Of a stretch of DNA of 64,000 bases, positions 8,593 to 59,788 are shown in pieces. A program made the translations under genes and the position numbers. The stretch comes from Spirilliplanes yamanashiensis. GTDB taxonomy: Bacteria; Actinomycetota; Actinomycetes; Mycobacteriales; Micromonosporaceae. The stretch covers positions 1-64,000 of the forward strand of contig NZ_BOOY01000010.1 of the NCBI RefSeq assembly GCF_016863475.1. The letters run 5' to 3'. The notes beneath the pieces are model-generated. The model had not been told where the DNA came from, did no database searches, and worked only from the letters and a program-made list of their open reading frames with translations. Positions within the stretch are counted from its first letter, which is position 1. Each line of letters begins with the position of its first letter.

Positions 8593-8611
8593 TTAACTAA
8601 GGCTTACCTAA
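8593..8611. promoter_or_regulatory. Iron box (IdeR/DmdR-type operator)
   Basis: TTAACTAAGGCTTACCTAA matches the actinobacterial iron-box consensus TTAGGTTAGGCTAACCTAA at 15 of 19 positions. It lies between the stop of the sortase gene (8639) and the start of the propeller gene (8544), so it should repress the propeller gene when iron is sufficient. Confidence 0.7.
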
Positions 8612-11177: not shown

Positions 11178-12356
11178 TCAGATCGCGGTCAGGGTGAGCG
11201 TCGCCGTGTAGGAGCCCGGCAGGGTGGTGGTGGGCAGGCGCAGCTGCAGGTCGGCGCCCAGGGTGGCGGTGCCCCGGCCCTTGCCGGCGGCGGCCGTCGC
11301 CAGCGGCGCGGCCGCCTTGAGGCCCGTGCCGGCCGGCACCGCGCCGCCCGCCGCGACCGTCTGGCCGGTGGCGGTGGTGAGCACCTTCGGCGTCCAGCCG
11401 AGGAACCGGCCGTCGATCGTCCCGGCCGCCCCGGTGAAGTCGCCGATCTGGCCCGAGACGGTCCAGCCGGCGTCGACGCCGCGCAGGTCGGAGACCGTGA
11501 CCGTGGGCAGCGCGCCGGTGGCCACCAGGGCGTCCAGCTCGGGCGTGACCTGCGGGGTGGACAGGGCGACGGTGGTCGCGCCGACCTTGATCGCGAGGGC
11601 GCCCGTGTCCGGCACCGACGTGGTGATCGTGACGGCGGCGGTGGGGGCGTCCGGGTCGGGCGCGGCCGCGACGGTGAACGGCACCGCGACGCTGACCCCG
11701 CCCGCGGCGAGGAAGTTCAGCGTGTGCGGGCCCGCGGCGGCGCTAGCCGGGACGGCGATCCCGCGGTCGGCGAAGCTGCCGTCGGCGCCGCTGGTGAACG
11801 TGGTCAGCGTGGCGGCGCGGTCGAGCTTGACCGTCACGGTCGCGGCGGGCGGGAAGTTCACGCCGGACGCGGCGAGCGTGCCGCCGGCCTCCACCGTGGA
11901 TCCGGCGAGCGTGACCGCGGCGACCTTCGGGGCCTCGACGGCGAACAGCGCGGTGTGCAGGCTGCGCACCTCGTCGGGGGCGCCGGTGAGCATGCGTAGC
12001 CAGTGGCCGGCGCCGGTGACCCCGGCGGGCAGCGTGACGGTGCCGCTGACGGCGCCGGTGGTGTCGGCCGCCTTGACCTCGGCGAAGATGTCGCCGCCGT
12101 CGGCCTTGCGCACCTGGCCGTCGTCGACCTTGACGACGACGTTCGAACCGGTGCCGTCGGCGTTGACGAAACCGGTGCCGGTGAACGCGAGGGTGCCGCC
12201 GGGCGCGACGGTCGACGCGGCGATCGCGACGGTGGCGCCCTTCGGGTTGTCGGGGCGGGGGTCCGCCGCGTGGGCCGGGGCGGCGACGGCGAGCACCGTC
12301 GCGCCGGCGAGCGCGGCGATCAGTCCACCGGAGAGGCGGTGGAGGGGGTTCGGCAC
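11178..12356 (-). CDS. Secreted WxL-like surface protein with duplicated Ig-like domains
   Basis: The start chosen is the GTG at 12356, because GGAAGGA lies six bases upstream. A longer start at 12392 is possible. The 392-residue protein has a signal peptide to about residue 30. Domain A (about 33-142) ends in GHWLRMLTG and is clearly similar to the LPKTG protein encoded across the divergent promoter. A second Ig-like domain covers about 143-231. The last 150 residues look like a degenerate WxL domain, with GWTVSG near 297 and a terminal YTATLTLTAI where classic members have tryptophans. It is the first gene of the leftward iron-box unit with DUF916 and sortase. Confidence 0.7.
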   Translation of the reverse strand: MPNPLHRLSGGLIAALAGATVLAVAAPAHAADPRPDNPKGATVAIAASTVAPGGTLAFTGTGFVNADGTGSNVVVKVDDGQVRKADGGDIFAEVKAADTTGAVSGTVTLPAGVTGAGHWLRMLTGAPDEVRSLHTALFAVEAPKVAAVTLAGSTVEAGGTLAASGVNFPPAATVTVKLDRAATLTTFTSGADGSFADRGIAVPASAAAGPHTLNFLAAGGVSVAVPFTVAAAPDPDAPTAAVTITTSVPDTGALAIKVGATTVALSTPQVTPELDALVATGALPTVTVSDLRGVDAGWTVSGQIGDFTGAAGTIDGRFLGWTPKVLTTATGQTVAAGGAVPAGTGLKAAAPLATAAAGKGRGTATLGADLQLRLPTTTLPGSYTATLTLTAI

Positions 12357-12414
12357 GGCGGGTCCTTCCGAGTCGGATCGATCACGGACCATCGGGCTCC
12401 GTCCATGACCGACG

Positions 12415-12433
12415 CCAGGTTAGGCTAACCTAA
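12415..12433. promoter_or_regulatory. Iron box in divergent promoter
   Basis: CCAGGTTAGGCTAACCTAA matches 17 of 19 positions of the IdeR/DmdR consensus and is the best box in the window. It sits between the WxL-like gene (minus) and the siderophore-binding lipoprotein gene (plus), so one operator can control both arms. Confidence 0.85.
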
Positions 12434-12488
12434 TGCCGCCCTGGGAAGACAGGGTGCTCAATGTCATCTCGGGAAGGCGACGACGCGC

Positions 12489-13478
12489 GTGAAGCTCCGC
12501 CCCGCCGCTGCCGCGGCGCTCCTGCTGCTCGGCCTGGCCGCCTGCACCAACGACGCACCAGCCGCCACCGACGGCGGGCGCACCGTCACCGACGGCCGGG
12601 GACAGCAGGTCAGCGTGCCCGCCGCCCCGGCGCGCGTGGTGACCCTCAGCGAGCCCACCCTGGACGGCGCCCTCGCCCTCGGCGTCACCGTCGTCGGCAC
12701 CACCAGCGGGCGCGGCCAGGGCGCCGTGTCGGCCTACCTGGCGGACCGGGCGGCCGGCATCCCGATCGTCGCCTCGGTCGCCGGGCCCAACCTCGAGCAG
12801 ATCCTCACGCTCCAGCCCGACCTCATCGTCACCGACGGCACCGTCACCGCCGACGACTCCGTGCTCGGCAAGCTGGCCGCCATCGCCCCCACCGTCTACG
12901 TCAGCCCCACCGGCGCGGACTGGAAGGCGGCGTTCACCACCCTCGGCGAGGTGCTCGGCAAGCAGGCCGAGGCGCAGCAGGTGCTCGCCGGCTACCAGTC
13001 CCGGGTGGACGAGACGAAGGCCGAGCTCGGCGACCGCGCCGACGACACCGTCAGCATCGTGCGGTGGGGCCTCGGCCAGCCGTCGCTGCTGCTGCGCGAG
13101 CTGCCGCCCAGCAAGGTCCTCGCCGACCTGGGGCTGCGCCGCCCGCCCGCGCAGGACCGCGACGGCCCCGGCCACTCGTCGCCCGTCAGCCGCGAGAACC
13201 TCGACCAGCTCGACGCCGACTGGATGTTCTTCGGCACCCTCGGCGGCGCCACCAACCCCGCCGGCGGCAACACCGGCGACGCCGCCGCCGTCGGGCGCGC
13301 GGCCAGCCAGACCATGCTCGACGACGACGCCGTCGCCACCCCCGGCTTCACCGCGCTGACCGCGTACCGCAACCGGCAGGTCGTGCCGGTGGACGGTTCC
13401 GCCTGGACCAGCTCGGGCGGCCCGTTGGCCGCCACCGTGATCCTCGGCGACGTCGCCGAGGCCATGACCGCCTCCTAG
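12489..13478 (+). CDS. Iron-siderophore ABC transporter substrate-binding lipoprotein (FecB/FepB type)
   Basis: The 329-residue protein has a lipobox LGLAAC at about residues 12-17. The mature Cys is followed by TNDAPAATDGGRTVTDGRGQ. The two-lobe periplasmic-binding fold of the class III family is seen in VPAAPARVVTLSEPTLDGALALGV and the QILTLQPDLIVTDGT segment. It should bind a ferric siderophore outside the membrane and hand it to the two permeases encoded 0.6 kb downstream. The GTG start at 12489 lies 56 bases after the iron box, giving a short leader. It is the first gene of a four-gene rightward unit. Confidence 0.88.
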   Translation: MKLRPAAAAALLLLGLAACTNDAPAATDGGRTVTDGRGQQVSVPAAPARVVTLSEPTLDGALALGVTVVGTTSGRGQGAVSAYLADRAAGIPIVASVAGPNLEQILTLQPDLIVTDGTVTADDSVLGKLAAIAPTVYVSPTGADWKAAFTTLGEVLGKQAEAQQVLAGYQSRVDETKAELGDRADDTVSIVRWGLGQPSLLLRELPPSKVLADLGLRRPPAQDRDGPGHSSPVSRENLDQLDADWMFFGTLGGATNPAGGNTGDAAAVGRAASQTMLDDDAVATPGFTALTAYRNRQVVPVDGSAWTSSGGPLAATVILGDVAEAMTAS

Positions 13479-13486
13479 GAGTCACC

Positions 13487-14056
13487 GTGATCCGTCGCCT
13501 CGCCGCCTCCGTCGCCGCGCTCGCCGTCGCCGCGCTCGCCGTCGGCTCACCCGCGGCCGCCGCCCCGCGCCCGTCGAACCCGCAGGGCGCGACCGTCTCG
13601 CTCGCCGCGTCCACCGCCCGGGCGGGCGCCACGCTGCGCTTCTCCGGCACAGGCTGGAAGAACCAGGCCGGCCGCGGCCAGGTCGTCACGATCAAGCTGG
13701 ACGACGTCGACATCCTGCGCGACGTCACCGCCAGCGACAGCGGCGCGATCTCCGGCTCGGTGACGATCCCGGCCCGCACCGGCACCGGCCAGCACTGGCT
13801 GCGGTTCCTCGCCGGCTCCGGCGCCGAGAACGACGGGCCCGCCCGCAGCCTGGCCAGCGCCATGTTGACGGTCACCGCCGGGTCGTCCGGCGGCGCCACC
13901 CCGACGGCCACCGGCACCGCCGCGCCGTCGACCGGCGGCACCCTGCCGAAGACCGGCATCGACGCGGGCGGCTGGCTCGCCGGCGCGCTGCTGCTGCCCG
14001 CCGCGGGCGCCGCGCTGCTCGTCGCCGACCGGCGCCGCCGACGCAGCGCCGCGTGA
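13487..14056 (+). CDS. Small LPKTG-anchored cell-wall protein, iron-regulated
   Basis: The 189-residue protein has a signal peptide (1-26) and one Ig-like domain (about 27-131). It ends with a Ser/Thr/Pro spacer, the sorting motif LPKTG at 153-157, a hydrophobic helix (about 162-180) and the tail DRRRRR. This is a complete cell-wall sorting signal. The domain (PRPSNPQGATVSLAAST to GQHWLRFLAG) closely resembles domain A of the WxL-like protein. The GTG at 13487 is preceded by AGGAG, and the stop overlaps the next GTG as GTGA. Lying between a siderophore-binding protein and its permeases, it probably displays a binding or docking domain on the wall. Confidence 0.85.
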   Translation: MIRRLAASVAALAVAALAVGSPAAAAPRPSNPQGATVSLAASTARAGATLRFSGTGWKNQAGRGQVVTIKLDDVDILRDVTASDSGAISGSVTIPARTGTGQHWLRFLAGSGAENDGPARSLASAMLTVTAGSSGGATPTATGTAAPSTGGTLPKTGIDAGGWLAGALLLPAAGAALLVADRRRRRSAA

Positions 14057-18415: not shown

Positions 18416-22216
<3,801 letters not shown>

Positions 22217-45669: not shown

Positions 45670-47499
45670 ATGGAGGCAGACCGGTCCACGGACGACAGCC
45701 GCGCCGAGAACCGGCGCGAGGTGCCCCGTTCCCGCACCCCGAAGGCCACGTTCAGCAGCGCGGAACCCACGGCAGGCGACGACCGCCCGGGCCCCCCGGC
45801 CCGGCCGCCGGCGGTCGCCTTCCGGCAACCTCACAACCGCGACGCTACGGGCGCTCCGGGCACTTCTGACGTTTCCTCGCCCGACGGCCCCGAGCCGAAG
45901 CCCGCCGCCCGCCCCACCACCGGAGCCCCGCAGCCCGGGGCGACGGCGGCGCCGTCCGGCAAGCCACCGCGGCCGAAGGCACCGGCCAAGCAGGCGCCCG
46001 CCAAGCAGCAGCGCCCCAAGCCCACCCCGCCGAAGAAGGCGAAGCCCCAGCCCCCGGCCCCGGAGCCCTCGGCCGGACCCACTGCCGCAGCGGCCACACC
46101 GGCGGCGGCGCCCGAGGCGACCGGCCCCGCCCCCCAGGCCGCACCGCCGAAGACCACTCCGCCCAAGGCGGCACCGCCGAAGGCCACCCAGCCCAAGGCC
46201 GCCCCGCGGAAGGCCACCCCGGCCCAGGCCACACCGCTGAAGGCAGCGGCTCAGACCACTCCATCCAAGGCAGCCTCGCTCGAGGCCGCGGCCCAGACCG
46301 CCCCGCCCAAGGCAGCCCCGCTGGAGGCCGCGGCTCAGGCCGCGCCGGCCAAGGCCAACCCGCCGAAGGCGGCCGAGCCCAAGGCAGGCCCGACGGAGGC
46401 CACGATTCCGGCCGCGCCGACCAAGGCCGACCTGACCAAGGCCGACCCGACTAAGGCGGCCGAGCCCAAGGCAGGCCCGACGGGCGCCGCGGCCCCGGCC
46501 GCGCCGACCAAGGCCACGCAGCAGGGGACCACCCCGCCGAAGGCACCGACCCAGGCCACGCCGCTCGAGGCCACGGTCACCCCGTCGGAGGCTGTGGCCC
46601 CCGCCGGCGACGCCAAGCCCACGCCCCCGGCAAAGGCCGCAAAGCCCGCCAAGGCCGCCAAGGCCGGCCGCCCGCTAGCGGTCCCCCCGCTTCCGCAGGT
46701 CCAGCCCACCACCGCGGCCAAGCAATCCCCGGCCGAGCAGCGCCCCGCCGCCCGCCAGGCCCCCGTCGGCAAGGACGACCCCGTCACCCCGGCCGGCCCC
46801 CAGCAGCCGGCGCCGCAGGCGGCGGAGACCGCCACGACCGGGCAGGCGACCCTCAAGCACCCGAAGACCCTCGCCGACCAGCGCCCCAAGCCCCCCGCCG
46901 AGCGCACCGACCCGGTGCCCCGCCGGCACGCCACCCTGAGCGCGCAGCCGGCCGAGAGCGCCAACGGCGGGCTGTGGGGGCGGCTCGCCGCCGATCCCGC
47001 GCACGCCCCCGAGACCCTCGCCGAGGCGGCCGTGGCCGCGCTCGGGCCGAAGGCGGCCGCGTGGGTGCGGGTGACGCGGGAGGCGTATCCGCACGCGGAC
47101 CAGGATGCGGTCGCGCGGCTGGCTGTCGAGCGGGCTCGGCGGCACGGGGCCGTCGGTGGGGCGGTCGCGGCGCTGTCCGGCGGGGCGGCGGTGTTGACCG
47201 GGGCGGCCGCGAGCGCGTACGCCCAATCCTTGCTGGTCCTGTCGGTGGCGGCCGCTTACGGGCACGATCCGGCGGCGCCGGAGCGGGTCGCGGAGTTGGT
47301 GCGGCTCACCGGGGTGCGGCCGGAGTCGGACGGGCCGGTGGAGCGGCTGGCGATGCCGCTGGTCGGGCAGGCGGTGACGTGGTTCGCGCTGCGGACCGTG
47401 AACCGGCTGCTGCCGGGGGCGGCGCTCGTCGCGGCGACGCTGGGGGCGCGGGCGTCGGTGGAGAAGCTGGGGGCCAAGGCGGTGGCGCACTACCGCTAG
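45670..47499 (+). CDS. EcsC-family protein with a giant Pro/Ala/Lys/Thr-rich N-terminus
   Basis: The 609-residue protein (ATG 45670) has about 420 residues of low complexity. They are built from tandem PPKAAP, PTKA and QATPLKA-like units, almost free of aromatic residues and strongly basic. The C-terminal about 180 residues (from GLWGRLAADPAHAPETLAEAAVAALG) form an EcsC domain with ALGPKAAAWVRVTREAYPHADQDAVARLAVERARRHGAVGGAVAA and QSLLVLSVAAAYGHDP. EcsC proteins are membrane-associated and of unknown function. The disordered head could bind DNA, RNA or acidic polymers. Its TAG overlaps the convergent stop in a CTAG. Confidence 0.75.
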   Translation: MEADRSTDDSRAENRREVPRSRTPKATFSSAEPTAGDDRPGPPARPPAVAFRQPHNRDATGAPGTSDVSSPDGPEPKPAARPTTGAPQPGATAAPSGKPPRPKAPAKQAPAKQQRPKPTPPKKAKPQPPAPEPSAGPTAAAATPAAAPEATGPAPQAAPPKTTPPKAAPPKATQPKAAPRKATPAQATPLKAAAQTTPSKAASLEAAAQTAPPKAAPLEAAAQAAPAKANPPKAAEPKAGPTEATIPAAPTKADLTKADPTKAAEPKAGPTGAAAPAAPTKATQQGTTPPKAPTQATPLEATVTPSEAVAPAGDAKPTPPAKAAKPAKAAKAGRPLAVPPLPQVQPTTAAKQSPAEQRPAARQAPVGKDDPVTPAGPQQPAPQAAETATTGQATLKHPKTLADQRPKPPAERTDPVPRRHATLSAQPAESANGGLWGRLAADPAHAPETLAEAAVAALGPKAAAWVRVTREAYPHADQDAVARLAVERARRHGAVGGAVAALSGGAAVLTGAAASAYAQSLLVLSVAAAYGHDPAAPERVAELVRLTGVRPESDGPVERLAMPLVGQAVTWFALRTVNRLLPGAALVAATLGARASVEKLGAKAVAHYR

Positions 47500-48293
47500 A
47501 CCCAGGACAGCCACTCCTTCGGCAGCAGGGTGTAGCCGACGAACGCGAACACGTCGAGCAGCAGGTGCGCGAGGATCAGCGGCAGCACCCGCTTCGTCCG
47601 GAGGAAGAACAGGGCGAAGACGACGCCCATGACGGCGTTGCCGACGAACGCGCCGAAGCCCTGGTAGAGGTGGTACGAGCCGCGCAGGGCGGCGGACACG
47701 GCGATGATCACCGGGGTGCGGTAGGCGAGGTCGCGCAGCCGGGTCATGAGGTAGCCGACGACGATGACCTCTTCGAGGATGGCGTTCTCGGCGGCGGCGA
47801 GGATGAGCACGGGCACGGCCCACCACAGGTCGGGCAGGGCGGCGGGCACCAGGTTGGCGTTGATGCCGAGCAGGCCGGCGACGTACACCAGGGCCAGGCC
47901 GGGCAGCCCGATGAGGGCGGCCAGGGCGGCGCCGCGGGCCAGGTCCTGCATCGGGGTGCGGCGGTCGATGCCGAGCGACAGGGTGGGGTGGTCGCGGCGC
48001 AGCAGGTGGACGGCGAGCAGCACCGGCACGATCGCGAAGGCGATGCCGAGGAGCTGGTAGGTGAGGTCGAGCCAGGGCCGCGGTGAGGCGGACGTGTTCA
48101 TGGCGACGGTCTGGTCGCCGAGGCGCTGTTCGGCGGTGAGTTTCGCGGTGAGCGAGACGATCGCGTAGACGGCGGACTGGCCGAGCGACAGGCCGAGCAC
48201 GAGCAGGATCTCGGCGTGCACGGCGCCGCGGCCGGCGGGCGGGCGGGCCCAGCCGGGTAGGACCGGCGGGGAGGGCGATGCGTCGGCTGCCAC
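47496..48293 (-). CDS. CPBP intramembrane metalloprotease
   Basis: The 265-residue membrane protein has about eight segments. The CPBP/Abi motifs are ENAILEEVIVVGYLMTRL (EExxxxR type), RGSYHLYQGFG and LILAHLLLDVFAFVGYTLL. Related enzymes cleave membrane-embedded substrates or prenylated peptides. The ATG at 48293 faces the flavohaemoglobin gene across 240 bases. Substrate unknown. Confidence 0.88.
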   Translation of the reverse strand: MAADASPSPPVLPGWARPPAGRGAVHAEILLVLGLSLGQSAVYAIVSLTAKLTAEQRLGDQTVAMNTSASPRPWLDLTYQLLGIAFAIVPVLLAVHLLRRDHPTLSLGIDRRTPMQDLARGAALAALIGLPGLALVYVAGLLGINANLVPAALPDLWWAVPVLILAAAENAILEEVIVVGYLMTRLRDLAYRTPVIIAVSAALRGSYHLYQGFGAFVGNAVMGVVFALFFLRTKRVLPLILAHLLLDVFAFVGYTLLPKEWLSWV

Positions 48294-48533: not shown

Positions 48534-49640
48534 ATGGGTAACCTCGCACGGCTGTTGAAGGAGAGCTGGACTCTCGTCGAGGACCAGCAGGACAAGGTCG
48601 CCGGCTACTTCTACGCGAGGATGTTCCTGTCCCACCCGGACCTGCGGGACCTGTTCCCGGTGCAGATGGACGTGCAGCGCGCCCGCCTGCTCAACGCGAT
48701 CGTCACGGCGGTGCAGACGCTCGAGGACCCGGAGGTCTTCGACGAGTACCTGAAGGCGCTGGGCCGCGACCACCGCAAGTTCCACGTCAGCCCCGAGCAC
48801 TACGACGTGGTGGGCGGCGCGCTGATCGAGGCGATGCGGGCGTTCGCGGGCGAGCAGTGGAGCATCGAGTACGACCAGGCGTGGGCGGACGCGTACGGCG
48901 TGATCGCCGCGAAGATGCTGGCCGGCGCGGACGCGGACACGAACCCGCCGTACTGGCACGCGGAGGTGATCGCGCACGAGCGGCGCAGCACCGACATCGC
49001 CACGTTCACGGTGGCGCCGATGCAGCCGATCGACTACCGGGCGGGCCAGTACCTGTCGGTGGAGGTGCCGAAGTACCAGCCGCGGATGTGGCGCACGTAC
49101 TCGCCGGCGAACGCCCCGCGCAAGGACAACACCCTGGACTTCCACGTGCGCGCGATCGGCGCGGGCTGGGTGTCGAGCGCGCTGGTGCGCCGGTTGAAGC
49201 CGGGCGACATGGTGCGGCTGGCCGCGCCGATGGGCTCGATGACGCTGGACCGCCGGTCGACCCGCGACGTGGTGTTCGTGGCGGGCGGCACGGGCCTGGC
49301 GCCGATCAAGGCGCTGGTGGAGGAGCTGACCCGGTACAACCGGACCCGCTGGGTGCACGTGTTCTTCGGCGCCCGCAACCGCGACGACCTGTACGACCTG
49401 GCGGAGCTGAACAAGCTGGCGGCCCGCTACCCGTGGCTGTCGCTGGTGCCGGCGTGCAGCGAGGACGAGACGTTCCCCGGTGAGCAGGGGCTGATCTCCG
49501 AGGTGGTGGCCCGGTACGGGCCGTGGTCGGAGCACGACTTCTTCGTCTCCGGTTCGGGCACGATGGTGAAGGCGACGCTGCGCACGCTGGCGGAGCTGCA
49601 GGTGCCGTCGATGCGCATCCGCTACGACACCTTCAACTAG
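48534..49640 (+). CDS. Flavohaemoglobin-type globin-reductase
   Basis: The 368-residue protein (ATG 48534, GGAGAGG upstream) has a globin domain (about 1-130) with VAGYFYARMFLSHPDLRDLFP, containing the B10 Tyr, and the proximal His in HVSPEHYDVV. The FAD domain has MWRTYSPANAP, and the NAD(P)H domain has VVFVAGGTGLAPIKALVEEL and FFVSGSGTMVKATLRTLAEL. Flavohaemoglobins turn nitric oxide plus oxygen into nitrate using NAD(P)H. The order of domains and length are near normal (about 400). An NO-defence or oxygen-related role is likely. Confidence 0.9.
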   Translation: MGNLARLLKESWTLVEDQQDKVAGYFYARMFLSHPDLRDLFPVQMDVQRARLLNAIVTAVQTLEDPEVFDEYLKALGRDHRKFHVSPEHYDVVGGALIEAMRAFAGEQWSIEYDQAWADAYGVIAAKMLAGADADTNPPYWHAEVIAHERRSTDIATFTVAPMQPIDYRAGQYLSVEVPKYQPRMWRTYSPANAPRKDNTLDFHVRAIGAGWVSSALVRRLKPGDMVRLAAPMGSMTLDRRSTRDVVFVAGGTGLAPIKALVEELTRYNRTRWVHVFFGARNRDDLYDLAELNKLAARYPWLSLVPACSEDETFPGEQGLISEVVARYGPWSEHDFFVSGSGTMVKATLRTLAELQVPSMRIRYDTFN

Positions 49641-51136
49641 TACGCCCAGGGGCTGCCGGTCTGCCGGTACTCCTCGACCGGCAGCAGGGGTTCGCCGGCG
49701 GGCATCCGGTCGACGTACAGCCGGCCCTCCAGGTGGTCGATCTCGTGGGCGACGAGCCGGGCCATGGCCCGTTCGAAGAACGTGATGACGCGGGTGCCGT
49801 CGTACCGGGAGTGCTCGACCTCGATCCGCAGCGGCCGGCTGACCAGGCCGCGGTGGTCGAAGAAGGACAGGCAGCCCTCGTAGCGCTCGTCGGTGGCGTC
49901 GCTCTCGCCGACGACGCGCGGGTTGACCAGGACGATGCTGTCGGCGCCGCGCTCGGGCGGCCGCACGACGGCGATCGCGGACGGCAGGCCGATCTGCGGC
50001 GCGGCCAGCCCGACGCCCTTGCGGAACACGTGCAGCTCGTCGAGCTTGTCGAGGGTGGCGCGCAGCCGCACGGCGGCGTCGCGCGCGGCGGCCTCCTCGC
50101 GCGGCAGGTCGTACGGCCGGGCGCGGCGGCGCAGCAGGTCGTCGCCGCGCTGCACGATGCCGGCGTCGGCCATCCGGGCGCTGGCCCGGCCCTCCGAGGG
50201 CGCGGCGGTGGCGGCGGCGCTGCCGCGGAAGCGCCATTCGAGCCGGTACCGCGCGTTGAGGGCGGGGGTGTCGGTGTGCCACTCGAACGTGGACCGTTCG
50301 GCGTCGGCGTGCCGCTCCAGCGGGGTGCGGACGGGCGCCTCGGCGGCGAGGGAGTCCTCGACGCCCCACACCTGGGCCTCGAACTCCAGCGGGAAGCTGA
50401 GCCGGACGGTGAGGTGCCGGGTGGGCAGGCGGACGGCCCGCTGGAACCACTGCCCCCACTTCTCCTGCCCGACGGTGTACTCGTACTCGATGGTGGTGCG
50501 CTCGCCCGGGTAGAGCGGGAAGCGGCCGCGTTCGTTCTCGAACAGCAGCCAGACCTCCTTGAAGTTGTCCCGGTCCTGCTTGCTGCGCCACTCCATCCGC
50601 TCGTCCTCGCAGCGGGCCTGGATGTCGAGCTCCGCGTAGGTGAGCGGGTGGTCGCGGTGGTGCCGGTTGGAGCGCTCGGAGTCCTGCGGGTACCGGTCGA
50701 CGGCGATCCGCACCAGGTAGCGGGTGACGGGCTCGTTGCCGGCGTTGTAGAGGTCGCGGCGCACCTTGCACCGGTACACGCCGTCGGTGTACGTCAGCTC
50801 GGCGATCTCCTGGTCGACGATGAGCCCGGTGCCGGGCGGCATCCACTGCTCGGGCACGGGCGGGTCGCGGTGCACGGAGTTGCGGGAGTGCCGCAGCTCG
50901 TCGTACTCCTGGAACTTCTGCCAGATGGCGCCGCCGGCGCCGAGGACGGCCTCGGCGCGGCGGGCGAAGTCCTCGGTGGGGCGGTGCCGGCGCCCCTCCA
51001 CGTGGCTGACGTACGACGGGTCGAAGCCCATCAGCGCGGCGAGCTGCTTCTTGGTCATGCCGCGATCGACCCGCCACTGCGCGAGCAGGGCCGCGAACGT
51101 CTCAGCGGCTCGCTCGACGGGCGAGGTGGTCATCAC
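49637..51136 (-). CDS. XRE helix-turn-helix fused to a peptide deformylase
   Basis: The 499-residue protein begins with an XRE helix-turn-helix (about 15-65, RGMTKKQLAALMGFDPSYVSHVEG). A middle region (about 100-305) is beta-rich with an unassigned fold, including VDRYPQDSERSNRHHRDHPL. A complete C-terminal peptide deformylase (about 320-480) has all three motifs: GVGLAAPQ (374-381), EGCLS with Cys422, and HEIDHLEG with His464, Glu465 and His468. The metal site is therefore intact. Stand-alone deformylases remove formyl from new proteins. Fused to a DNA-binding domain, a regulatory or specialised role is more likely. GTG 51136 or ATG 51133 may start it. Confidence 0.88.
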   Translation of the reverse strand: MMTTSPVERAAETFAALLAQWRVDRGMTKKQLAALMGFDPSYVSHVEGRRHRPTEDFARRAEAVLGAGGAIWQKFQEYDELRHSRNSVHRDPPVPEQWMPPGTGLIVDQEIAELTYTDGVYRCKVRRDLYNAGNEPVTRYLVRIAVDRYPQDSERSNRHHRDHPLTYAELDIQARCEDERMEWRSKQDRDNFKEVWLLFENERGRFPLYPGERTTIEYEYTVGQEKWGQWFQRAVRLPTRHLTVRLSFPLEFEAQVWGVEDSLAAEAPVRTPLERHADAERSTFEWHTDTPALNARYRLEWRFRGSAAATAAPSEGRASARMADAGIVQRGDDLLRRRARPYDLPREEAAARDAAVRLRATLDKLDELHVFRKGVGLAAPQIGLPSAIAVVRPPERGADSIVLVNPRVVGESDATDERYEGCLSFFDHRGLVSRPLRIEVEHSRYDGTRVITFFERAMARLVAHEIDHLEGRLYVDRMPAGEPLLPVEEYRQTGSPWAY

Positions 51137-51336
51137 GGTTGTCCCCTTCGTGCCGGGAATTCCCAGTCTCCGTTCCCGTGGTCCACGCCGCTAACCGACT
51201 AGCGCGTTGCCGACAGATGGCTTGACGATTCCCCAACCCCGTATCCACGGGTTAGGTCACACTGACCCCGGTCAGTCACTCTCCGGTGATCTTCACGGCC
51301 GGGAAACGGACGGTCGGTGTGATGATCCCCCGAGCC

Positions 51337-51355
51337 TATGGTTAGGCTTGCCTTA
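51337..51355. promoter_or_regulatory. Iron box upstream of FhuF-like gene
   Basis: TATGGTTAGGCTTGCCTTA matches 14 of 19 iron-box positions, with an intact GGTTAGGCT half. It ends 40 bases before the FhuF-like start and is far from the divergent deformylase start (51136). Confidence 0.6.
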
Positions 51356-51394: not shown

Positions 51395-52219
51395 GTGCAG
51401 AGGGAGGTGACCGGCCCGGCGATGACCACCGCACTCGACCGCGGCGCCGCCGCCGCCCAGCCCCTCGCCCCCGTCACCGCCACGCTGCGCGCCATGTTCG
51501 GCACCGCCACCGACCTGCCCGGCCTGGCCCCCGGCCTCACCGTGCACGACCGGGCCGGCTGGCGCACCGCGAGCGACCTCATCGCCTGCCACCTGCCCGA
51601 GCTGCTGCGCGCCGCCGAACGCCGCTGGGACGCCCAGCCGCACGCGGCCGCCGCCCTGGCGTGGAAGACCTACACCTACTGGCTGGCGCTGCCCGCCGTG
51701 CTCGGCTGGGCGTCCGCCCGCCGGGTGCCGCTGCTGCGCGCCGAGGACGTGCTCGTCCACTTCGAGGACCACCGCCCGCTGGTCACCCTCGGCCTCGACC
51801 GCGACATCACCGTCGCCGTCCTGCCGTCCGACCCGATCGCCGCCCTCGCCCTACCCAACGTGCGCGTGGTGGCCGACGAGGCGGCGCTGCTGGCCGAGCT
51901 GCGCGCGAGCCTGCTCACCGCCCACCTCGAGCCGATGCTCGACGCGCTGCACGCCCACCGGGTCCGCCTGGGCGCGCGCACCCTGCTCGGCTCCCTGGCC
52001 TCCGGCGTCGCGCACGCGGTGCTGCGCTCCGCCGACGTGGTGCCCGGCTCCACCGCCCAGACCATCCACACCCTGCTGGCCACGCTCGGCGTCGACGACC
52101 TCGTCGAGCTGGTGCCGGGCCCCGGCGGCCAGCTCACCGTGCAGCGCCGGACGTGCTGCCTGGCGTTCACCCTGCCGAAGCCGAAGGTCTGCACCGGCTG
52201 CTGCATCCGCACCGCCTGA
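51395..52219 (+). CDS. FhuF-like ferric siderophore reductase
   Basis: The 274-residue protein (GTG 51395; ATG 51422 possible) ends in RRTCCLAFTLPKPKVCTGCC. Cys255, Cys266 and Cys269 give the C-x10-C-x2-C pattern of FhuF-type [2Fe-2S] proteins, and extra cysteines at 254 and 270 make CC pairs. FhuF reduces ferric siderophore in the cytoplasm so the iron can be used. The iron box upstream supports a part in the same regulon as the siderophore genes at 12-22 kb. The N-terminal part (Ala/Leu-rich) matches actinobacterial (2Fe-2S)-binding siderophore reductases. Confidence 0.85.
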   Translation: MQREVTGPAMTTALDRGAAAAQPLAPVTATLRAMFGTATDLPGLAPGLTVHDRAGWRTASDLIACHLPELLRAAERRWDAQPHAAAALAWKTYTYWLALPAVLGWASARRVPLLRAEDVLVHFEDHRPLVTLGLDRDITVAVLPSDPIAALALPNVRVVADEAALLAELRASLLTAHLEPMLDALHAHRVRLGARTLLGSLASGVAHAVLRSADVVPGSTAQTIHTLLATLGVDDLVELVPGPGGQLTVQRRTCCLAFTLPKPKVCTGCCIRTA

Positions 52220-57499: not shown

Positions 57500-59788
57500 G
57501 TGGACCAGCGAATCCGCGCGTTCCCGCTCTGGTGCCGCCGGAACCGGCCGACCCTGATCGCCGCCGCCGTCGCCGTCGTCGCGAGCGCTCTGTTCCTGCT
57601 CAACGAGCTCGGGCCCACCGTGCCCGTCGGGCTCATCTGGCTGTCCGCGCCCGTCTCCGCCGTCCTGGCCACCGCGTACTGCGCCCGCACCTCCCGGCAG
57701 CCCTTCCTGACGGCGCAGGCCCGCGCGTACTGGCGCACGGTCACCGGCGCCGTCGCGATGGTCGGCGTCGGGGCCCTGTCCGGCGCCGCCGACGCCGTGC
57801 TCAACCCGCACATGACCGTCCGCCAGCCGCCGCTGCCGGCCCTCGCCAGCTACTCCGTGGCGCTGTTCCTGCTGCTCTGGGCGCTGTACCGGATCCCGGT
57901 CAACGCCGGCAGCAACGGCGAGCGCCTGCGGGTGTGGCTCGACGCGGCCACCGTCGCCCTCGGCACCGGCGTCTTCCTGTGGCACTTCTTCACCAACACC
58001 GGCGTGCCGGGCAGCGGCGACGCCAACGCCGAGTTCTGGATGCTGGCGATGGTGCTCATCGGCATCGGCGCCGTCGCCAAGGTGGCCCTGTCCAACGACG
58101 GCGTCATCGACCGCGGCTCGCTGCGCCTGATGGCGGCCGCGCTGATCGCCGGCTCGCTCGGCACGGTGCCCCAGCGGCTGCTCATCGAGCAGCCGAAGTA
58201 CAACGCCATCCTGTACGTCATCCCGGTCGTCCTGTTCTACGTCGTCTGGTCGGCGGAGCAGCAGCGCCGGGCCGGGCCCGTGACCGCGCTGCCGGGCCGG
58301 CGCAACCCGTTCAGCGTGCTGCCGTACCTGGCCGTCGTGGCCGTCGACGCGCTGCTGCTGTCGCTGGTCGCCGCGCGCCAGACCGCCCACCTGCCGCCCG
58401 TCGCCACAGGTGCGGTGCTGCTCACCGCGCTCGTGGTGATCCGGCAGGTCACCGCGTACCGGGAGAACCGCAGCCTGCTCGACCGGCTGGAGCACGGCGC
58501 CACCCACGACGCGCTGACCCAGCTGCCGAACCGCGCGTACTTCGCCGAGCGGCTCCAGCACGCGCTCGCCAACAACAACGGCCGGCCGCTCAGCGTCGCC
58601 CTCATCGACCTGGACAGCTTCAAGACGATCAACGACACGCTCGGCCACGGCACCGGCGACGCCCTGCTCGTCGCGGTCGGCCGCCGGCTCGCCGCGCAGC
58701 TGACCGAGCACGACACCGTGGCCCGGCTCGGCGGCGACGAGTTCGTCGTCGTCCTCGACGGCACCGACCCCACCGGCGCCGACATCGCCGTGCAGCGCAT
58801 GCTCGACTCGCTGTCGTCGCCGTTCTGGGCGGACGGCCACGAGCTGCTCGTCAGCGCCAGCATCGGCGTCGCCGACGGCCGCGACGGCGACAACGCCAGC
58901 GAGCTGCTGCGCCAGGCCGACGTCGCCATGTACGCGGCGAAGCGCCAGGGCGGCGCCAGCCACCTGCACTACCGCCCCGACATGGGCGGCAGCTCCAACG
59001 ACCACGCCCACCTGGGCGCCGAGCTGCGCGCGGCCCTCGGCACCGACCAGCTGTTCCTGCTGTACCAGCCGCTGGTCAGCCTCGACGACGCCAGCATGGT
59101 CGGCGTGGAGGCGCTCATCCGGTGGAAGCACCCGGAGCGCGGCCTCGTCTCGCCCGCCGACTTCATCCCGCTCGCCGAGCGCACCGGCCTCATCCTGCCG
59201 CTGGGCCGCTGGGTGCTGGCCCGGGCCTGCCGCCAGGCTGTCACCTGGACCGAGCGCTACGGCGACGCCGCCCCGCAGGTCATCAACGTCAACGTGTCGG
59301 CCCGCGAGCTGCGCGAGGCCACCTTCCCCGACCAGGTCGCCGAGATCCTCGCCGAGACCGGCCTGCCGCCGCACCGCCTGGTCCTGGAGATCACCGAGAC
59401 CACGGTGCTGACCCTGGGCGCTTCGGTGACGAACCTGCACGCGCTGCGCGAGATGGGCATCCGGGTGGCCCTCGACGACTTCGGCACCGGCCAGTCCACG
59501 CTCACCCTGCTGCACGACTGCCCCGTCGACGAGCTGAAGCTGGACCGCTCCTTCACCCAGTCCGACGCCGGTGACCGCCGCGACACGATGGCCGTCGCCG
59601 TCATCCAGCTCGCCCGCGCGCTGGGCCTGGACACGGTCGCGGAGGGCGTCGAGACCGCCCAGCAGGCCGACCGGCTGCGCGCCCTCGGCTACGAGGTGGT
59701 GCAGGGCTTCTACTTCGCCCGCCCGCTGTCGGTCGAGCAGGTCGAGGGCGAGCTCGCCGCCGCGCACACCCCGGCCCGGGTGGCCTGA
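57500..59788 (+). CDS. Membrane-bound GGDEF-EAL cyclic-di-GMP enzyme
   Basis: The 762-residue protein has about eight to nine membrane helices (1-315), a GGDEF domain (about 325-495) with GGDEF at 411-415, and an EAL domain (about 505-755). The EAL site is intact: EALIR 537-541, Asn598, Glu633, the DD of LDDFGTG at 659-660, Lys680, Glu715. The product-inhibition I-site RxxD five residues before GGDEF reads TEHD, so it is lost. It may make or degrade c-di-GMP or act as a switch, controlled by the membrane sensor. Confidence 0.9.
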   Translation: MDQRIRAFPLWCRRNRPTLIAAAVAVVASALFLLNELGPTVPVGLIWLSAPVSAVLATAYCARTSRQPFLTAQARAYWRTVTGAVAMVGVGALSGAADAVLNPHMTVRQPPLPALASYSVALFLLLWALYRIPVNAGSNGERLRVWLDAATVALGTGVFLWHFFTNTGVPGSGDANAEFWMLAMVLIGIGAVAKVALSNDGVIDRGSLRLMAAALIAGSLGTVPQRLLIEQPKYNAILYVIPVVLFYVVWSAEQQRRAGPVTALPGRRNPFSVLPYLAVVAVDALLLSLVAARQTAHLPPVATGAVLLTALVVIRQVTAYRENRSLLDRLEHGATHDALTQLPNRAYFAERLQHALANNNGRPLSVALIDLDSFKTINDTLGHGTGDALLVAVGRRLAAQLTEHDTVARLGGDEFVVVLDGTDPTGADIAVQRMLDSLSSPFWADGHELLVSASIGVADGRDGDNASELLRQADVAMYAAKRQGGASHLHYRPDMGGSSNDHAHLGAELRAALGTDQLFLLYQPLVSLDDASMVGVEALIRWKHPERGLVSPADFIPLAERTGLILPLGRWVLARACRQAVTWTERYGDAAPQVINVNVSARELREATFPDQVAEILAETGLPPHRLVLEITETTVLTLGASVTNLHALREMGIRVALDDFGTGQSTLTLLHDCPVDELKLDRSFTQSDAGDRRDTMAVAVIQLARALGLDTVAEGVETAQQADRLRALGYEVVQGFYFARPLSVEQVEGELAAAHTPARVA

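Follow-up and report, generated by a model that had tools for sequence, protein, structure and literature searches.

Bacterial peptide deformylases (PDF) are Fe(II) enzymes which act on formyl groups. A helix-turn-helix (HTH) combined with an HExxH hydrolase at the regulatory junction of a mobile element is known from the ImmR-ImmA and IrrE systems. A deformylase can also be encoded within a biosynthetic gene cluster, like LydA in the lydiamycin cluster (PMC12130866). In searches of open-access papers a description of an HTH-deformylase protein was not found. Here we describe such a protein in the window, the whole stretch of 64,000 nucleotides from Spirilliplanes yamanashiensis that was analyzed. 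In our preferred reading, to which we give a probability of about 0.45, the fusion protein would be an autoregulating transcription factor with its middle region (MID) and PDF as input and with an N-formylated peptide or a formyl-Met-like compound as ligand.

Domain layout and active site of the fusion protein

A preliminary description of the locus had reported an HTH, a middle region and a deformylase with three intact motifs in a single 499-residue protein. This layout was confirmed on the minus strand, and all three motifs were found.

49637..51136, minus: HTH-MID-PDF fusion gene, uninterrupted 499-aa ORF
50927..51097, minus: helix-turn-helix HTH_31, residues 14-70 (Pfam; AF2 helices 6-24, 29-36, 40-47, 55-65)
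50216..50848, minus: MID beta-sandwich, residues about 97-307 (fold of AF2 model 1)
49700..50158, minus: peptide deformylase domain, residues 327-479 (Pfam and structure match)
49994..50017, minus: deformylase motif I GVGLAAPQ, residues 374-381
49865..49879, minus: deformylase motif II EGCLS, residues 420-424
49733..49747, minus: core HEIDH of deformylase motif III, residues 464-468 (HEIDHLEG in full)

The gene starts with GTG and the following codon is ATG. In the Pfam analysis the window protein matched HTH_31 with 46.8 bits (cut-off 27), HTH_3 with 26.8 bits (cut-off 23) and Pep_deformylase PF01327 with 113.4 bits (gathering cut-off 22.8). No Pfam family was found between HTH and deformylase at E 0.1, and at the same threshold the protein matched neither TPR nor any ImmA/IrrE-type peptidase, its hydrolase domain being a deformylase. 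A PADLOC scan gave nothing beyond weak HTH matches. An artefact or frameshift fusion, raised in the preliminary description as a possible objection, is ruled out. The same domain order recurs in 13 Micromonosporaceae loci with 68-76% identity to the window protein, as well as in one Streptomyces locus and 11 phage-like contigs with 46-52% identity, so the fusion is the product of neither chance nor a frameshift.

The middle region, described at first only as beta-rich, was modelled as a beta-sandwich of about 210 residues which has no Pfam match in the window protein. AF2 model 2, based on 26 rows, reached a mean pLDDT of 82.9 with a pTM of 0.49, which makes the individual domains fairly reliable, though not the way they are arranged. 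The mean pLDDT of model 1 was 63, with ten-residue means of 46-91 inside MID and poor values in the deformylase. The deformylase domain matched 6jes_A in Foldseek (E 6.4e-12) and 3m6q in VIA (Z 19.2, 3.4 A across 156 residues). For MID, model 1 gave a VIA Z of 15.1 to 7oci_A (2.4 A, 167 residues), a Z of about 12 to M1 enzymes and a Foldseek E of 1.6e-6. As modelled, MID resembles the beta-sandwich of the M1-aminopeptidase N-domain and of ribophorin I (OST1), a fold match taken from the weaker model 1 because deformylases filled the VIA list of model 2. DUF3857 was weakly matched by 6 of 26 MID sequences, that of the window not being among the six (best E 1.2e-4). A MID profile search against the sequences of solved structures gave just two weak matches, the Ig-like chains dIG14 and scIg12.

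In the window protein, GxGxAAxQ, EGCxS and HExxH are present with the metal ligands C, H and H and the catalytic E. Conservation was analyzed in 84 distinct fused-type deformylases, at least 40% identical to that of the window; they come from 114 loci, some of which overlap. All 83 distinct sequences that cover these positions have the same Gln, Glu and Cys in motifs I and II and the same first His and Glu in HExxH, and the last His is invariant in all 82 sequences covering it. Among the 84 sequences, single deviations within the motifs affect one Ala, one Leu and one Ser position. The intact deformylase site joined to an HTH, as first described, is kept across lineages, with ligands and catalytic Glu unchanged. 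Each of the other three deformylases encoded in the genome has a Gln ahead of HExxH; in the fused type this Gln is replaced in 81 of 83 sequences, and EGCL is followed by SFFDxRG in at least 71 of 84. With 88.7 bits, the window protein misses the TIGR00079 equivalog cut-off of 103.95 (NCBI profile). Judged by sequence, the fused-type deformylases are a distinct subfamily with an intact site.

One of the three further deformylases of the genome is located beside fmt, and the fusion is therefore unlikely to be the housekeeping enzyme. The third stand-alone-type deformylase (L003:1462-2067, minus) scores below the PRK00150 and TIGR00079 cut-offs. A 519-codon frame of L003 was considered as a second fusion and rejected, since only residues matching positions 356-479 of the query aligned. 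The conserved catalytic residues of the fusion could equally fit a plain enzyme, a point against a regulator. A dedicated or back-up deformylase would mature particular proteins or give inhibitor resistance, with the HTH merely setting its dose, and it would account for the unchanged active site; the cluster-borne LydA (PMC12130866) is a precedent. We consider this unlikely, as the genome has three other deformylases, the annotated clusters near plasmid copies are diverse, the enzyme is missing from some orthologues with HTH-MID, and the protein has its own subfamily signature with a score below the TIGR00079 cut-off.

Chromosomal neighbourhood and upstream elements

The neighbouring genes and the intergenic elements of the window locus are as follows.

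51395..52219, plus: FhuF-like ferric reductase with a CC-x10-C-x2-C end, divergent neighbour
48534..49640, plus: flavohaemoglobin-like gene, convergent, 4-bp overlap with the stop of the fusion gene
47496..48221, minus: CPBP (Rce1-like) membrane protease gene, conserved neighbour
51207..51226, minus: TGTC element, here GTCAAG-n-TGTCGG, 71-90 bp upstream of the fusion start
51337..51355, no strand assigned: iron-box-like site, in the part of the intergenic region nearer to FhuF

The window locus was compared with L035-L047. In all 14 of these loci the fusion gene is divergent from the FhuF-like gene, in 13 it is convergent with the flavohaemoglobin-like gene, and the CPBP protease gene is next in order. 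All 14 FhuF-like proteins matched FhuF and FhuF_C at E up to 10; that of the window reached 23.0 and 14.9 bits, just below the cut-offs of 25.2 and 20.5.

The intergenic region between FhuF and fusion gene contains two conserved blocks. An iron-box-like block, which we take to be a DtxR/IdeR-type iron box in the window, lies on the FhuF side, and TGTCAAG-n-TGTCGG is located mostly 80-150 bp ahead of the fusion gene in Micromonosporaceae. The TGTC element was found in 34 of 40 Micromonosporaceae rows compared with 1 of 134 other genes (L035-L047), and the iron box in 27 of 40 compared with 0 of 134; among the 40 rows that of L028 is doubtful and two genome pairs are apparently duplicated. These two patterns, like the TCAYTCA pattern described below, were chosen after inspection of the alignments; since the copies are also related to one another, significance is overstated by the counts. 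The TGTC element of the window is a candidate operator or promoter element. With up to 2 mismatches allowed, it was found once in the own genome, which favours control of the fusion gene over a wide regulon. In many loci an iron box belongs to FhuF itself, which may therefore not be a target; FhuF as sole target is weakened by this. Among the intergenic alignment rows listed, a short conserved ORF that could encode a signal peptide or propeptide was not noticed.

The conserved place between the FhuF and flavohaemoglobin genes (14/14 and 13/14), the iron box nearby and the Fe(II) of bacterial deformylases would suit a metal or redox sensor. Here the Fe(II) site of PDF would read iron, oxygen or NO, and the HTH would adjust FhuF and flavohaemoglobin. 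Such a sensor is improbable, however: PDF is missing in 6 of 25 FhuF-linked orthologues, plasmid and phage-like copies adjoin unrelated genes, and, allowing up to 2 mismatches, a second TGTC copy was not found in the own genome, so there is none before the flavohaemoglobin gene.

Elsewhere in the window, a Peripla_BP_2 binding protein and an NRPS gene (condensation-adenylation-carrier-thioesterase) are located at 12489-13478 and 18416-22216. Iron-box-like sites were found in this region at 8593, 12415, 18395 and 22239, and it is probably an iron-regulated siderophore region. A GGDEF-EAL protein is encoded at 57500-59788.

Distribution, orthologues without deformylase and mobile copies

The order HTH-MID-PDF was found in Micromonosporaceae chromosomes, actinobacterial plasmids and 12 phage-like contigs. 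A sample of 61 genomes was analyzed, consisting of the own genome, 36 of the same family and 24 of the same order. Near-full-length matches to the query at 62-73% identity occur in 15 other family genomes, and others have partial, split or more distant ones. As deformylases are general, every one of the 61 genomes gives some match to the query. A further fourteen loci were taken from GTDB contigs, of which L039 and L047 apparently repeat genomes already sampled. Coverage of at least 80% of the query was reached in 13 plasmid records and in no record of the annotated phage collection. MID was present in 23 of 394 class genomes, own included, when searched with the protein, and in 3 of 396 phylum genomes when searched with a MID profile (at most 7 candidates scored per genome among the rows listed), and both searches may miss members. 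The 23 class genomes point to a patchy distribution outside the family.

In some genomes HTH-MID and PDF are separate neighbouring genes, so the fusion is the common state but not the sole one. The split form in L078 (G048) has an opposite-strand HAD-like gene between the two. In L013 the protein extends about 290 residues beyond the deformylase, and this tail without match is probably an assembly frameshift. Most fusion-type genes on plasmids are annotated simply as peptide deformylase, so that a likely regulator family is easily overlooked.

Six of 25 FhuF-linked family genomes lack PDF and keep HTH-MID (L022, L025, L027, L030, L032 and L087, the last highly diverged with a MID identity of 34% and unsure in its placement). 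In G005 (L032) a piece of a fused-type deformylase is located on another contig; in the other five a second fused-type match is absent among the matches listed. The HTH-MID tree needs 5 state changes, 3 of them forced by well-supported branches, while 15 of 31 inner branches are open. As few as 5 changes were also needed in 149 of 500 shuffles, so the PDF-less label is scattered. Repeated loss of PDF is the simplest reading. With HTH-MID kept, these losses indicate that HTH-MID is the core of the locus and that PDF adds something which is dispensable in some lineages and not needed for the role of the gene there. The same six orthologues speak against an essential maturation enzyme at the FhuF-linked locus; a maturation enzyme had been one of the first suggestions. 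Some of them have long branches (L030 0.70; L032 0.63 compared with 0.30 for its sister L018), which reads as if MID and PDF were coupled. The branch of L022 is not long (0.14, no longer than those of its neighbours with 0.12 and 0.08), a point against such coupling.

The TGTC element is kept in 3 of the 6 PDF-less loci (L022, L025 and L087). HTH-MID without PDF at the same locus and with the same upstream element would be expected if MID alone were the receptor and PDF an accessory or structural module, and one genome encodes two large proteins that contain MID but no PDF. A structural role of PDF would leave the unchanged catalytic residues unexplained, and we regard this possibility as quite improbable. 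The two large proteins (L079:6444-9200 and 11477-13828, minus) show a weak STAND or TPR match before MID, and one of them ends in a strong inositol monophosphatase domain.

A second HTH type can also precede MID-PDF. In L125 its HTH_31 match reaches 26.8 bits (cut-off 27), and in L132 it is located just ahead of MID-PDF, the stretch between consisting of N. The second type also occurs on Streptomyces plasmids with 36-47% identity (L138-L141, where four proteins of 404-441 aa were analyzed). Weak TPR matches, all below the Pfam cut-offs, are present in three of these proteins, and three of the four genes are transcribed divergently from small enzyme clusters. In these varied architectures MID behaves like a connector that joins a front-end module to what is often an enzyme.

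Of 20 listed plasmid loci 14 were analyzed, and in 13 of these the gene upstream is transcribed divergently. Biosynthesis-type genes are located on the divergent side in 11 of 14, the exceptions being L056, L057 and L060. The divergent sets are QueD-QueE-FolE (3 loci), ketosynthase/AMP-binding (2 loci), amino acid racemase with NRPS, radical SAM with creatininase and glycosyltransferase, dTDP-glucose dehydratase with ATP-grasp and aminotransferase, D-Ala-D-Ala-ligase-like with peptidases, and glycosyltransferases (2 loci, one behind an IS element). These neighbour clusters are diverse and include the 7-deazaguanine type. A link to actinonin or other deformylase inhibitors, which had been proposed, is not supported, given this diversity and the three other deformylases of the genome. 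Of that first interpretation, the intact deformylase-HTH fusion stands, as a gene with its own conserved upstream elements, and the inhibitor link lacks support.

Phage-like contigs whose members were tested with Pfam encode FtsK/SpoIIIE-like and DnaB-like proteins and, in L072, an integrase. Six of 12 distinct phage-like loci, namely L048 (the same as L066), L063, L067, L069, L070 and L073, have a downstream ORF that shares 4 bp with the fusion gene. Among those scanned, the overlapping ORFs were T5orf172 (L048, L067) and GIY-YIG (L070); that of L073 was grouped by BLAST with a NUDIX protein. The pattern TCAYTCA is present within 100 bp upstream of 18 of 23 phage-like and plasmid genes compared with 1 of 471 other genes in these loci. 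Of the five genes without it, three are the Nocardia copies and one is the copy that follows the IS element. These 5 of 23 and the 6 of 40 rows without TGTC are a point against a regulator.

The position of the gene at or near a divergent junction of phage-like or integrative elements, the FtsK-like, DnaB-like and integrase genes of the tested members and the joining of an HTH to an HExxH hydrolase recall a repressor with a built-in hydrolase like ImmR/ImmA or IrrE. Upon a signal, HExxH would act on the repressor or a partner and the promoter would be freed. This is very unlikely, since the fold is that of a deformylase, no ImmA/IrrE-type family matched at E 0.1, and deformylases act on formyl groups.

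Proposed function and comparison with known systems

Gene order, gene-specific upstream elements and the apparent exchange of the C-terminal module point to a regulator with MID-PDF as input. In the autoregulating factor we prefer, the N-terminal HTH would bind the conserved element upstream of its own gene. By this it would control the fusion gene and, in many copies, also the divergent neighbour gene or cluster. The metal-containing deformylase site would bind an N-formylated peptide or a formyl-Met-like ligand and possibly hydrolyse it, and the aminopeptidase-N-like MID would relay the ligand state to the HTH. The intact fusion, the unchanged catalytic residues, the upstream elements, the divergent order and MID-PDF behind a second HTH type can be read directly from the genes. 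From these we infer DNA binding, autoregulation, the input role of MID-PDF and, above all, the ligand. With the deformylase site intact, a formyl peptide is the most economical guess, and sensing of formylated peptides by the fusion is compatible with the sequence data. The occurrence of the fusion in many actinobacteria and their mobile DNA suggests that a housekeeping enzyme was turned into the sensing part of a gene regulator.

A more specific version is rather doubtful. It would make the repurposed, MID-coupled deformylase an intracellular N-formyl-peptide receptor which directly controls transcription in actinobacteria, phage-like elements and plasmids, with deformylation ending the signal. 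If true, this would be a bacterial family of formyl-peptide-sensing regulators. In general, the members of this family probably regulate mobile elements and small biosynthetic clusters. Should the deformylase site act as the input, formyl peptides or the formylation status would be a new type of signal for bacterial transcription, and deformylase-inhibitor antibiotics would hit an unexpected regulatory target in actinobacteria.

The fusion shares the fold and all three motifs with class I bacterial deformylases (PF01327). It differs from them by the position of the domain behind HTH and MID, by SFFDxRG, by the replaced Gln and by a score below the TIGR00079 cut-off. XRE-TPR (RRNPP-like) regulators, including HTH proteins of Streptomyces plasmids, have a similar HTH_31-type N-terminus, divergent clusters and an association with mobile elements, whereas the fusion has MID-PDF in place of TPR and an adjacent propeptide was not noticed among the intergenic alignment rows listed. 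In contrast to ImmR-ImmA and IrrE, its hydrolase has another fold and chemistry and is mostly part of a single polypeptide. MID of AF2 model 1 is similar in fold to the N-domain of M1 aminopeptidases, ribophorin I (OST1) and DUF3857; unlike M1 aminopeptidases, the MID protein has no M1 catalytic domain, and the identity is 6-13% among the matches listed.
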